DNA of 36,231 nucleotides, taken from the NCBI GenBank assembly GCA_003233345.1, contig QILK01000142.1, forward strand, positions 1 through 36,231. The letters run 5' to 3'. The stretch comes from Gammaproteobacteria bacterium. Lineage in GTDB: Bacteria > Pseudomonadota > Gammaproteobacteria > SZUA-21. The position numbers and the translations under genes are program-made. Shown here piece by piece: positions 29,277-35,785 of the stretch. The first letter of the stretch is position 1. Each line of letters opens with the position of its first letter. The notes beneath the pieces were generated by a model. That model was not told where the DNA came from and ran no database searches. It saw only the letters and a list, made by a program, of their open reading frames with translations.

Positions 29277-29294
29277 ATTTGTTTTTGTAACGTG

Positions 29295-30227
29295 ATGAAT
29301 AATCATAAAACAAATAAGCAGGCACGTATTGGAATCGTTTTAAGCTCGGGTGGCATTAGAGGTGTTTATGCACATACCGGTTTTATTCAGGCGCTGGCGG
29401 AAATGGGCATAAAGGTTAGCGCGGTAACCGGATGTAGTGCCGGTGCCATCGTCGGTGGCATTTATGCCAGTGGTAAGAATATGCAGGCGTGGACTAAGAC
29501 GCTGGCATCGCTTAACCCCCGCCGCTTTTGGCGGCCTCAATGGTTTCGCATGATCCTCCAACTATTACTACATAGAGGTAAAGGGCTAACCGGTCTATCC
29601 TCAATGGAGGCGGCCAGGGAGTTTTGTAAAGAGCAGATTGAAGTAGAACGTATTGAAGATTGCAAAATCCCGTTTAAGTCTTTGGCGATGAACATTGAAA
29701 CAGAGACCAAAGAAATTTTTAGCAAAGGTGATCTCGCTTCTGCGATAGTCGCGAGTGCGGCTATTCCGATTGTGTATCAACCCGTAAAAATTGAAGATAA
29801 ATATTATTTAGACGGCGCCCTAGAGGATTTTGCGCCAACGGACGCAATTTGTTGTCAACATAACCTGGATATACTAATCCTGCACTATGTCGCCAGTGAT
29901 TCTAATGATTCACTAAGCTTTGCGCAAATGATAGGTAAACCCTGGACGATTTATAGAATTCTCGGAAAGCTGCTTTATAAACGATACCCATGGTATTTGA
30001 CCGGAAAACCTATTTCCCTGCTACATTGCCCTTGCCAATGTGGTACTGAAATTATAGTCATTGAACCAAAACTGGATGATTTGTCCTGGCCGCTTACTGA
30101 CACTGGAATAAATATATTGGAATCCGCGAAAAAACAGACAGTAAATTTACTGGCGCCGTATCGAGATAACATTAACCAAGGTGACAAGAAAGATCTTGTT
30201 ATTAAAATTTCTCGTCATCAGAATTGA
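29295..30227 (+). CDS. Patatin-like phospholipase (RssA/NTE family)
   Basis: Lipid acyl hydrolase with a Ser-Asp dyad. The oxyanion loop SSGGIRGVYAHTG is near residues 16-28, the nucleophile elbow is GCSAG (Ser48) and the catalytic Asp is in LDGALEDFAP (Asp173). Length (310 aa) fits single-domain patatin proteins of the RssA type. It starts 15 bp after the FAD oxidoreductase stop. A GTG at 29292 lies one codon before the chosen ATG, so the start is uncertain by one residue. Probably cytoplasmic or membrane-associated, since no signal peptide is seen. Substrate unknown. Confidence 0.87.
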   Translation: MNNHKTNKQARIGIVLSSGGIRGVYAHTGFIQALAEMGIKVSAVTGCSAGAIVGGIYASGKNMQAWTKTLASLNPRRFWRPQWFRMILQLLLHRGKGLTGLSSMEAAREFCKEQIEVERIEDCKIPFKSLAMNIETETKEIFSKGDLASAIVASAAIPIVYQPVKIEDKYYLDGALEDFAPTDAICCQHNLDILILHYVASDSNDSLSFAQMIGKPWTIYRILGKLLYKRYPWYLTGKPISLLHCPCQCGTEIIVIEPKLDDLSWPLTDTGINILESAKKQTVNLLAPYRDNINQGDKKDLVIKISRHQN

Positions 30228-30485
30228 AATAGGCAGATATAGTTTTTGTCTATTCGAAAACCGAACTATCAGGATAAAAACTGTTTTGTTGACGCAGGTC
30301 AAGTTAAAATTGAAAATTAATTGTTACAATATATTTGTTTCAATAAACTATATTTTTTCTTATTTATTATTATCATTCACATACCTGTAAGATAAATTAA
30401 GATAAATTTAGTATCAGTAAATCTCAGTACATAGTAGTTAAAACTTATACCCGAATCAGATTCTAACAATCAGAGGAGAGTAAAA
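30228..30485. other. Upstream region of the glycogen/phosphoketolase operon
   Basis: A very AT-rich gene-free stretch. It holds the FNR-like dyad and -10 element described separately. A long leader of about 150 bases runs from the predicted start near 30337 to the first ribosome binding site. No other structure was recognised. A 69-codon frame at 30181-30390 has no coding character. Confidence 0.5.
30289..30330 (+). promoter_or_regulatory. FNR/ANR-type site at -41.5 with -10 element
   Basis: Perfect dyad TTGAC-GCAG-GTCAA (30289-30302), one base per half-site away from the FNR/ANR consensus TTGAT-N4-ATCAA. A -10 hexamer TACAAT lies at 30325-30330, predicting a start near 30337. The dyad centre (30295.5) then falls at -41.5, the exact position of FNR/CRP-class activators at class II promoters. 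No separate -35 is needed in such promoters. Confidence 0.55.
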
Positions 30486-30527
30486 ATGTACACTCACATC
30501 ATTAAAGCAAGCGTCCTATTATGCTAG
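30486..30527 (+). CDS. Putative 13-residue leader peptide overlapping the phosphorylase start
   Basis: ATG at 30486 has the only good ribosome binding site here (GAGGAGAG, 30472-30479). It opens a 13-codon frame (MYTHIIKASVLLC) whose TAG stop lies inside the start region of the phosphorylase gene (ATGCTAG, start at 30521). Termination and restart there would couple translation of the phosphorylase to this leader. It could instead be chance; conservation is untested. Confidence 0.4.
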   Translation: MYTHIIKASVLLC

Positions 30528-32215
30528 ATGAATTTATTCATGAGCCGCGAATCGCCTACTTCTCAATGGAAATAGCGTTACACAATGACATGCCTACCTA
30601 CAGTGGTGGCCTTGGCGTACTCGCAGGCGACACTTTGCGTTCGGCAGCTGACATGGAATTACCAATGGTCGCGGTGACGCTGGTAAGCCGATCCGGTTAT
30701 TTTCAGCAGCAAGTGGACGATTCCGGCCACCAACTTGAAAATCCAGATGGCTGGAACCCGGCTCAATGGGCAACACCACTAACAGCAAAAATTGCATTAA
30801 CTATTGAACACCGTACGGTATGGGTTGGCGGTTGGCTATATATTCTCAAGGGCCATATGAATGGTCGGCAACCGATCATTTTACTGGATACCGATTTCGC
30901 TGAAAACCAGGAAGAAGACCGCCAAATTACCAATCAACTCTACGGTGGTGACGATGCAAACAGACTTAAACAAGAAATGGTATTGGGATTAGGCGGTATC
31001 CGCCTGTTGCAGGCAAGTGGCTTTGAAATACGTCAATATCATATGAATGAAGGACATTCGGCCCTGTTGGCACTGGAACTTTTGCAACGCTATGCTTATC
31101 CGCAAGAAAATTTGCGTCCAGGAGAATCAAAATACGACCTGCCAAGAGTACGCGAGCTTTGCTGCTTTACCACACACACGCCAGTAGAAGCGGGTCATGA
31201 TCGCTTTTCCTACGACCTGGTTTACCAGATTATGGGGGAGTTTATTGAAACAAATACATTAAAACAGCTTGCTGGCGAAGAGAGTCTGAATATGACACGG
31301 TTAGCGCTTAACCTCAGCGAGTTTGTCAATGGCGTCGCTAAACGCCACGCACAAATATCACGCACCATGTTTCCAGGTTACCATGTACGTGCGATCACCA
31401 ATGGCGTGCATCCGTTTACCTGGTCTTGCAAAAGCTTTCGCCAACTATTTGATAATCAACTCCCAGGATGGTGCCATGAACCGGAGCTATTAATGCGAGC
31501 TGATTGCTGTTTATCAAACCAGGAAGTCTGGCAAGCACATCAACAGGCAAAGCAAGATCTAATCGAAGATATTGAAAATTTAGTCTCAGTCAGGCTAGAC
31601 GCTGAACTACCCTGCTTCGGATTTGCCCGGCGCATGACAGCTTATAAACGCCCCGATCTATTATTTTCCGATCTGAATCGTTTGAAAAAAATCGCTTCGC
31701 GTTTTCCGTTTCAGGTTGTTCTAGCTGGGAAAGCACATCCCAGAGATGAAGGCGGGAAGCGATTGATTGAAAGTATCTACCAGCATATCGAAGAGTTGGC
31801 TGACACTGTTACTATCGTTTTTCTCCCTGGGTACGATATGGAGATGGCAAAAAAACTGGTGGCCGGTGTGGACGTTTGGTTAAACACACCGTTACGACCA
31901 ATGGAAGCATCCGGCACCAGTGGCATGAAAGCAGCCTTTAATGGCGTGCCCAATTTAAGCGTACTTGATGGTTGGTGGATAGAAGGCTGTATCGAAGGGG
32001 TTACTGGCTGGGCAATTGGTAACAGTGACGCAACGGATAATAGCAATGATGCCGCATCGCTATACGAAAAACTTGAGAATAAGGTATTACCTCTCTATTA
32101 CCATGAGCGCGATGCATGGATTGCGGTGATGAAAGGCGCAATTGCAAAAAATGCATCCGTATTTAATAGCCACCGGATGATGCGGCGTTATGCTACTGAG
32201 GCGTATATCCGTTAG
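30521..32215 (+). CDS. glgP: Alpha-glucan phosphorylase, short GlgP family
   Basis: Pyridoxal-phosphate enzyme releasing glucose-1-phosphate from glycogen. At 564 aa it belongs to the short alpha-glucan phosphorylase family rather than the classical form of about 800 aa. Recognised segments are EPRIAYFSMEIAL at the start, TYSGGLGVLAGD (phosphate/glucan site), YHMNEGHSA, CFARRMTAYKRPDL-type sugar/phosphate binding, and the cofactor site EASGTSGMKAAFNG with Lys470. The start at 30521 matches the usual family N-terminus but has no ribosome binding site of its own. It probably relies on coupling to the short frame at 30486. It leads the operon with acetate kinase and phosphoketolase, feeding stored glucan into acetyl phosphate. 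Confidence 0.9.
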   Translation: MLDEFIHEPRIAYFSMEIALHNDMPTYSGGLGVLAGDTLRSAADMELPMVAVTLVSRSGYFQQQVDDSGHQLENPDGWNPAQWATPLTAKIALTIEHRTVWVGGWLYILKGHMNGRQPIILLDTDFAENQEEDRQITNQLYGGDDANRLKQEMVLGLGGIRLLQASGFEIRQYHMNEGHSALLALELLQRYAYPQENLRPGESKYDLPRVRELCCFTTHTPVEAGHDRFSYDLVYQIMGEFIETNTLKQLAGEESLNMTRLALNLSEFVNGVAKRHAQISRTMFPGYHVRAITNGVHPFTWSCKSFRQLFDNQLPGWCHEPELLMRADCCLSNQEVWQAHQQAKQDLIEDIENLVSVRLDAELPCFGFARRMTAYKRPDLLFSDLNRLKKIASRFPFQVVLAGKAHPRDEGGKRLIESIYQHIEELADTVTIVFLPGYDMEMAKKLVAGVDVWLNTPLRPMEASGTSGMKAAFNGVPNLSVLDGWWIEGCIEGVTGWAIGNSDATDNSNDAASLYEKLENKVLPLYYHERDAWIAVMKGAIAKNASVFNSHRMMRRYATEAYIR

Positions 32216-32264: not shown

Positions 32265-33368
32265 ATGTCCGTAATGACTGTAAACGCTGGAAGTTCTTCG
32301 CTACGTCTTGATCTTTTTAATATACAAGACGGTGATTCACTGTTGGTCATCGATTCACAACATATAGTCGCCCCTGCAAAATTTTCCGACTGTGTGCAAA
32401 ATTTCTTACAGAAAAATCACGATGGTGTGGACGTTATAGTGCACCGTATAGTACACGGTGGTAATAAAATTACCCGGTCGCAAGTGATCGATCAAGCGTT
32501 AGAGACCGAATTGGAAAAACTGTCAACCCTGGCCCCACTGCACAATCCAGTCGCACTGGAACTGATCCGGGTATGTCGCCGTCTATGCAACGACGACGTG
32601 GTTCAGATTGTCGTACCTGATACTGCATTTTTTTCCACGCTTCCGGATGTCGCCAAATACTATGCGTTACCACAAACGCTATGTGATCAATACGATATTC
32701 GCCGCTACGGATTTCATGGAATTGCTCATCAGGCTATGTTACGAACCTGGTTTGCAATGCGGGCAGACAATAAAGTTGGTAAACGGGTTATTTCAATCCA
32801 GCTCGGCGCAGGATGTTCGATAACCGCAAGCCGCAACCAGAAACCGGTCGATACTTCGATGGGGTTTACCCCTCTGGAAGGACTGGTGATGGCGACGCGA
32901 TGCGGTGATGTAGATGCCGGTGTAATACTTTATTTACAGCAACAAATGCAATGCTCAATCGACGATTTGCAACGGATACTCAACAATGAAAGTGGCTTAC
33001 TAGGCCTGTCGGAAGAAAGCGCAGACACACGTCAATTGCTACTCAGTAAAAATTCATCGGCAACACTGGCTATCGATCTCTATTGTTACCGAATCAAGAA
33101 ATATGTCGGTGCCTACCTGGCAGTATTGGGTGGTGTTGACGCAATTTTATTTGGTGGTGGCGCAGGCGAGAACAGCTGGGAATTACGCGCGAAAATTCTT
33201 AATGGCCTGGAATGGATGGGGATAAAACTGAACTCCAAACTGAATCAGGCTGTTAGCGATAAAAAACGATATATCAGTACCAGTGATAGCATCGCCATCT
33301 GTGTTATACCCGTCGACGAAAGTCGGGAAATGGTTCGCGAGGCTCTATCCAATTTAGCGATTTTTTAA
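32265..33368 (+). CDS. ackA: Acetate kinase
   Basis: Converts acetyl phosphate and ADP to acetate and ATP. Family signatures are present: NAGSSSLR at residues 7-14, [10 protein letters not shown] (usual form RYGFHGTSH) and [21 protein letters not shown]. The phosphate-binding loop, normally HLGNGAS, reads QLGAGCS here, so two usual residues are changed. Length is 367 aa against about 400 for classical enzymes. The glycine-rich [10 protein letters not shown] near the C-terminus is normal. It is sandwiched between phosphorylase and phosphoketolase, so it should use the acetyl phosphate the latter makes. Confidence 0.9.
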
Positions 33369-33391: not shown

Positions 33392-35785
33392 ATGGAAAAC
33401 CAAATGTGTACTCCCACAGTAGAAAGCAGCCCGTTATCGGCTAAAGAAGTATCGGCTATCAACGCTTATTGGCGTGCAGCAAACTATCTTTCTGTTGGCC
33501 AGATTTATCTACGTGATAATCCACTGTTACGCGAACCGCTGACACCCGAACATATCAAACCAAGATTACTGGGGCACTGGGGCACCACACCAGGACTGAA
33601 TTTTATCTATGTACATATGAACCGGGTCATTAAAAAATACAACCTCAATAGCCTGTATATTGCCGGACCAGGACATGGTGGCCCAGGGGTTGTTGCCAAT
33701 ACGTACCTGGAAGGTACTTATAGCGAATTCTATCCTGACATCTCTGAAGATACGGAGGGAATGAAAAAATTGTTTAAACAGTTTTCATTTCCAGGCGGCA
33801 TTCCAAGTCATGTTGCACCGGAAACACCAGGATCGATACACGAAGGTGGTGAATTAGGCTATTCCCTGTCTCATGCCTTTGGCGCTGTCTTTGATAATCC
33901 CGATTTAATCGCCTGCTGCGTGGTCGGAGACGGTGAAGCTGAAACCGGGCCACTGGCGACAGCATGGCACTCGAACAAATTTCTTAATCCTGTCAATGAT
34001 GGTGCTGTATTGCCAATATTGCACCTAAACGGATATAAAATTGCAAATCCGACGATACTGGCACGCATCAGCCAGCAAGAACTTACCAATCTTTTTAAGG
34101 GCTATGGTTACAAGCCCTATCTTGTTGAGGGCTCAGACCCAAACCAGTTGCATCAGATCATGGCGGAAAAAATGGATTCGGCCATTATCGATATCCATAA
34201 AATCCAAAAACAGGCAAGATCCGTCGGTGTAAAGACCCGGGCAAACTGGCCAATGATCATACTGCGAACACCAAAAGGATGGACAGGACCCAAAGTGGTC
34301 GATGGAAAAAAGGCAGAAGGATTCTTCCGTTCACATCAAGTCCCGCTTGCCGGAATAGCCAATAACCCAAAGCACCTGCAACAACTGGAATCGTGGCTGA
34401 AAAGTTATCGGCCCGATGAGCTTTTCGATAAACAGGGCCATCTTATAAAAGAATTATCCGCGTTGGCTCCCAAGGGACATTATCGTATGGGTGCCAACCC
34501 GCATGCAAATGGCGGGCAGTTGCTAAAGCCGCTAACAATGCCTGACTATCGCCAATACGCCGTTTCCTTATCAGCGCCGGGTGCGGTTAATGCTGAATCT
34601 ACCCGGGTTATGGGTAAATTTCTACGCGATGTAATGAAATTAAATAAAAATTCGCGTAACTTTCGCGTTATGGGACCGGATGAAACCGCATCTAACAGAC
34701 TGGATGCGCTTTTTGAAGTAACCAACCGCACCTGGATGGCAAAAACACTTCCAGAAGACGAGCACCTCGCCGTCGATGGCAGGGTCATGGAAATTTTAAG
34801 CGAACACACTTGTCAGGGCTGGCTAGAAGGGTATCTGCTTACCGGGCGGCATGGTTTATTTTCCTGTTATGAAGCCTTTATTCATTTAATCGACTCTATG
34901 TTTAACCAGCACGCCAAATGGCTTAAGGTCACCAGTAAAGAAATCCCATGGCGACGGCCGATCGCATCTCTGAATTATTTGCTGACCTCACATGTCTGGC
35001 GTCAGGACCACAACGGTTTTTCACATCAGGACCCTGGTTTTATCGATCATGTTGTCAATAAAAAAGCCGATATCATTCGCGTCTATCTACCGCCTGATGC
35101 CAATTGCCTGTTGTGCGTTACCGATAAATGCTTGCGCAGTCGGAATCTGGTCAATGTTATTGTTGCCGGGAAACAGCTTCAACCTCAATGGCTACCCATG
35201 GATGCAGCGATTAAACACTGTACTTCGGGAATCGGTATCTGGGAATGGGCAAGTAATGACCGTGGAGAAGAGCCAGACGTTATCATGGCTTGTGCCGGCG
35301 ATACACCCACGATTGAGACTCTCGCGGCAGTCGATTTATTACGGCAAACAATACCTGATCTAAAAATTAGGGTGATTAATGTTATGGATTTAATGACGCT
35401 GCAACCCAAGGAAGAACACCCTCATGGATTAAATGACAATGAATTTGACAACCTGTTCACTAAAAACAAACCTATCATATTTGCCTACCATGGTTACCCC
35501 TGGTTAATTCACCGCCTGACTTACAGACGCACTAACCATAAAAATATGCATGTTCGTGGCTACAAGGAAGAAGGTACCACCACAACACCGTTTGATATGG
35601 TGGTCAGGAATGAGCTAGACCGTTTTCACTTGGTAATGGATGTCATTAACAGAGTCGAAAACCTTGGCTGCAAAGCTTCACACATAACACAATTAATGCG
35701 CGATAGATTAATTGATCATCAGCACTATATCGTCGAGCATGGGGAGGATATGCCTTTGATCAGTGAGTGGAAATGGCCAAGTTAG
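33392..35785 (+). CDS. xfp: Phosphoketolase (Xfp)
   Basis: Thiamine-diphosphate enzyme that splits xylulose-5-phosphate and/or fructose-6-phosphate with phosphate to give acetyl phosphate plus glyceraldehyde-3-phosphate or erythrose-4-phosphate. At 797 aa it has normal length. Signatures include GPGHGGPG (92-99), [20 protein letters not shown], and the ThDP/Mg site GDGEAETG (179-186) continuing to ATAWHSNKF. The C-terminal domain has [13 protein letters not shown] and [18 protein letters not shown] strong AAGGAGAA precedes the ATG, 23 bp after ackA. Together the three genes make an ATP-yielding glycogen-to-acetate route. Substrate preference cannot be read from the sequence. Confidence 0.95.

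Follow-up and report, generated by a model that had tools for sequence, protein, structure and literature searches.

The window analyzed here, the whole 36,231-nucleotide stretch of contig QILK01000142.1 from a gammaproteobacterial MAG (3.89 Mb, 91% complete), carries toward its end the genes glgP, ackA, and xfp, encoding an alpha-glucan phosphorylase, an acetate kinase, and a phosphoketolase (Table 1). The three genes run in one direction, and the gaps of 49 nt between glgP and ackA and of 23 nt between ackA and xfp suggest that they form one transcript, in which the Rieske gene, starting 34 nt past xfp, could be included. Profile matches bear out the gene identities proposed in the first-pass annotation, namely, glycogen phosphorylase, phosphoketolase, acetate kinase, and a neighboring bc1 Rieske gene, with one refinement of the earlier call: the phosphorylase is of the TIGR02094 alpha-glucan type and not a classical GlgP. 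The glgP start has no good Shine-Dalgarno sequence of its own, and its translation is possibly coupled to that of the short leader ORF overlapping it; the ORF proved not to be conserved in relatives. An Rfam scan of positions 30000-31000 gave no match.

Phosphorylase, phosphoketolase, and acetate kinase together lead from glycogen to acetyl phosphate and on to ATP and acetate with no net redox change, the mutase, isomerase, and pentose-phosphate enzymes of this route coming from elsewhere than the operon. The genome encodes one haem-copper oxidase, a respiratory oxidase, and, truncated at a contig end, part of a glgC gene (a 270-bit match spanning 175 positions, below the full-length cutoff).

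Table 1. Features of the glgP-ackA-xfp region (positions in the window)
Feature	Position	Strand	Remarks
Predicted FNR/ANR-like activator dyad, TTGAC-GCAG-GTCAA	30289..30302	.	TTGACGCAGGTCAA; would span -48 to -35
Predicted -10 hexamer TACAAT	30325..30330	+	22 nt downstream of dyad
Inferred transcription start	30337	+	Inferred from -10 position; puts dyad centre at -41.5
Possible leader ORF MYTHIIKASVLLC*	30487..30528	+	Strong Shine-Dalgarno GAGGAG; overlaps glgP start by 8 nt
Alpha-glucan phosphorylase, glgP-type (TIGR02094)	30521..32215	+	Profile match 544 bits
ackA, acetate kinase, 367 aa (TIGR00016)	32265..33368	+	Profile match 327 bits
xfp, phosphoketolase	33392..35785	+	Profile match 1503 bits
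bc1 Rieske gene (TIGR01416), cut by contig end	35819..36231	+	132 bits on part before contig end

The dyad upstream of glgP, read directly from the sequence, is the perfect TTGAC-N4-GTCAA palindrome that the first-pass annotation had claimed, and it is the one perfect match to this pattern in the whole window. Set against TTGAT-N4-ATCAA with T/C variation allowed, it matches at all fixed positions and has the C/G variant at both variable positions. The measurable part of the claim that the dyad is centred at -41.5 is the 22-nt gap to TACAAT, which was confirmed; the figure itself, for a dyad centre at 30295.5, holds given an assumed start 7 nt beyond the -10. TACAAT lacks a good -35 at suitable spacing, which is what an activator-dependent promoter would show. 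A near-consensus dyad overlapping the -35 position, a poor -35, a -10 about 22 nt downstream, and a genome encoding Fnr are features shared with class II FNR/ANR promoters; unlike in the usual members of this class, both half-sites are TTGAC, the less usual symmetric form, and the promoter described here is predicted from its sequence. We consider it likely that the dyad marks a promoter activated by Fnr from a class II position and serving a redox-neutral fermentation of glycogen, with glgP-ackA-xfp probably being induced as oxygen becomes scarce.

An Fnr/Anr gene and further sites in the genome, which the first-pass annotation had named as checks on its reading, were both found. The all-C/G form TTGAC-N4-GTCAA is not overrepresented (4 occurrences in the 3.9-Mb genome versus 7 of a backward control pattern), whereas the broader TTGAY-N4-RTCAA occurs 62 times versus 14 for its backward control. 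Fifty-one of these broader sites were fetched, 34 of them coding and 17 intergenic, and a -10-like hexamer lies at a gap of 21-23 in 13 of the 34 orientations of the intergenic boxes, compared with an average of about 4 for other three-position windows. A search for ccoN, intended as a positive control on Fnr-regulated genes, gave no match over the cutoff in the genome. On the contig that carries fnr, an FNR-like box followed at gap 22 by a -10 (L157, position 1201) precedes a c-type cytochrome gene adjoining fnr; on another contig, C90, two FNR-like boxes lie 147 bp apart (L003, positions 1354 and 1501), upstream of a gene for a protein resembling B12-binding radical SAM proteins.

Three Crp/Fnr-family proteins, encoded on contigs C74, C144, and C28, score above the Pfam cutoff in the genome. 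The C74 protein has CxxCx5C plus a fourth cysteine and ETVSR, an ExxSR motif, in its recognition helix, aligns to solved FNR over 224 residues, and reaches 219 bits on NF008365, slightly under the curated cutoff of 228; by these features it is a complete four-cysteine Fnr. The dyad might instead be read by one of the other two family members, that is, the C144 protein or the Crp/NtcA-like C28 protein, in response to nitric oxide, nitrogen, redox, or energy state. Both proteins exceed the Pfam cutoff, and the C144 protein (RExxSR) retains ExxSR, the pattern by which TTGA half-sites are read. However, the set of cluster cysteines and the best Fnr match are found in the C74 protein only, and the boxes of other lineages fit the classical FNR consensus (TTGATATAGATCAA), so we regard control by another family member as unlikely, though it is the most serious of the alternatives. 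Since two further Crp/Fnr proteins are present, we infer the regulator of the dyad, with Fnr as its likeliest, not sole possible, reader.

A slightly less probable alternative is that the dyad arose by chance and that transcription of the operon comes from a constitutive sigma-70 promoter or reads through from the gene at 29292-30227. Two features of the region would allow this: no terminator was found between that gene and the operon, and TTGACG, within the dyad, could be taken for a -35 paired with GAAAAT at a 17-nt spacing. When the 293-bp intergenic region was dinucleotide-shuffled, however, a perfect TTGAY-N4-RTCAA box arose with a probability of 0.0026, and one accompanied by a -10 at gap 21-23 with a probability of 0.0004.

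Comparison with related loci bears on the chance explanation from both sides. Among 80 phosphorylase relatives fetched, of which 78 had upstream sequence that was analyzed, a strict box with a -10 lies within 600 bp upstream of glgP at five loci besides the window (L023, L058, L059, L065, and L081). The number expected among 78 is 0.005 from shuffles and about 0.2 from the density of real sites elsewhere in the loci, the latter being our own estimate and nearer the truth. The L065 box, overlapping a predicted coding sequence, may be a chance match. L023, L058, and L059 share the order box, small cytochrome c gene, glgP, ackA, with a gap of 22 in all three. ackA directly follows glgP at 7 of the 78 loci, and three of these seven are boxed versus 2 of the remaining 71 (hypergeometric P of about 0.004, calculated by hand and uncorrected for phylogeny). 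Further loci came from a second sample: L267 and L272, which belong to the lineage of L023, L058, and L059, and, from another family, L268, in which a box with gap 22 is followed by glgP and ackA. The gap of the window is matched exactly at L023, L058, L059, L267, L268, and L207, and identical geometry recurs before glgP-ackA pairs, which argues against chance. L023, L058, L059, L267, and L272 are related, leaving about three or four independent origins of the box.

On the other side, most of the 78 relatives, and also L285, the locus with the closest glgP found (78% identical), are without a strict box and -10 upstream of glgP. Lack of conservation in relatives, which the first-pass annotation had said would speak against its proposal, is therefore in part what we observe: the box stands before some glgP or glgP-ackA loci (L023, L058, L059, L267, and L268) but is absent from most. 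Judged from this distribution, the box before the operon is lineage-specific wiring rather than a fixed property of the operon. Almost no boxes were found upstream of the xfp operons in a scan of 60 xfp loci. In a genome of the same genus (G001), the contig with ackA-xfp carries TTGACCAGGATCAA followed at gap 22 by TAGAGT, positioned after xfp and preceding porin, cytochrome c, and phosphoglucomutase (pgm) genes; the glgP contig of this genome begins inside glgP, its promoter region lying outside that contig. With a box beside xfp, Fnr control of the glgP-ackA-xfp neighborhood is plausible in the genus, though the boxed gene differs in G001.

Several of the related loci have further features of their own. 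At L081, an fnr gene, likewise boxed, lies 5 kb from the boxed glgP. The box site at L023 is common to glgP and a divergently oriented PEP synthase gene, and PEP synthase genes near glgP at L023 (745-3236) and L081 (11073-13665) carry FNR-like boxes with a -10, an arrangement that suggests that glycogen breakdown and gluconeogenesis may be under common control there. In a Methylotenera MAG (L079, 5648-5661), the identical 14-mer TTGACGCAGGTCAA is located between glgP and a cytochrome oxidase cluster that runs divergently; it was not counted as support, having no -10 at the right gap toward glgP and adjoining that oxidase cluster.

That Fnr acts as a repressor or minor modulator, for example, by blocking the weak alternative promoter TTGACG-17-GAAAAT that overlaps the dyad, is very improbable, as the placement of the dyad and its gap are those of activation sites and the promoter scan of the region found no consensus sigma-70 promoter above chance, its promoter-like matches (5 found, 4.1 expected) being no better than random.

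Activation of the operon by Fnr would proceed as follows. When oxygen falls, [4Fe-4S] Fnr, encoded on another contig, would dimerize, bind positions 30289-30302, and contact RNA polymerase at a promoter with a poor -35 of its own, thereby switching on glgP-ackA-xfp. The gene products would then phosphorolyze stored glycogen and cleave fructose 6-phosphate and xylulose 5-phosphate to acetyl phosphate, which would give acetate and ATP with no net change in redox state. The oxygen control proposed in the first-pass annotation gains from the Fnr of the genome, the enrichment of the 21-23 gap, the recurrence of gap 22, the presence of part of glgC along with the oxidase, and the FixK precedent described below; it is weakened by the absence of the box in most relatives.

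Control of phosphoketolase by a Crp/Fnr-family regulator in a respiratory bacterium has a parallel in the alphaproteobacteria. In Rhodopseudomonas palustris TIE-1, the putative FixK targets measured include the phosphoketolase Rpal_1869, whose expression rose about tenfold in one anaerobic condition and, in the corresponding column, fell about ninefold when fixK was mutated (PMC3050613). A phosphoketolase also belongs to the FixK regulon predicted for alphaproteobacteria (PMC2908626). These systems differ in lineage and regulator, and glycogen phosphorylase and acetate kinase are not mentioned in the available text of either source, whereas the operon described here holds both in its phosphoketolase unit. 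Likewise, the combination of phosphoketolase and acetate kinase, converting acetyl phosphate to ATP and acetate, is shared with the bifid shunt and similar genes of cyanobacteria and methanotrophs; unlike there, the operon is headed by a predicted Fnr site and an alpha-glucan phosphorylase gene, and its pathway is predicted from the genes. The Burkholderia hypoxia (lxa) locus was considered as a precedent and set aside, the enzymes of the operon not being mentioned in PMC9733578. In the literature searched, we found no description of a glgP-ackA-xfp unit controlled by Fnr. Since regulation of phosphoketolase by FixK has been published, the predicted Fnr site on glgP-ackA-xfp adds a case to a familiar kind.

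The result is a concrete prediction that can be tested: on losing oxygen, this uncultured respiratory bacterium may persist through Fnr-induced conversion of glycogen to acetate and ATP, for which no electron acceptor is required. As the same site geometry recurs before glgP-ackA pairs in other families, this wiring may be common to some environmental Gammaproteobacteria. It is tempting to speculate further that alpha-glucan phosphorylase and acetate kinase, with or without phosphoketolase, constitute a portable emergency-ATP unit that came under Fnr several independent times in respiratory Gammaproteobacteria. We hold this proposal tentatively and with more doubt than belief; if true, such a unit would let otherwise respiratory bacteria begin to ferment glycogen in a redox-neutral way once oxygen is exhausted.

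The glgP subfamily is often found near copper or heavy-metal efflux genes. A CopA- or CusA-like gene lies within the fetched flanks at 34 of the 78 relative glgP loci, and likewise in the window (2875-27365).
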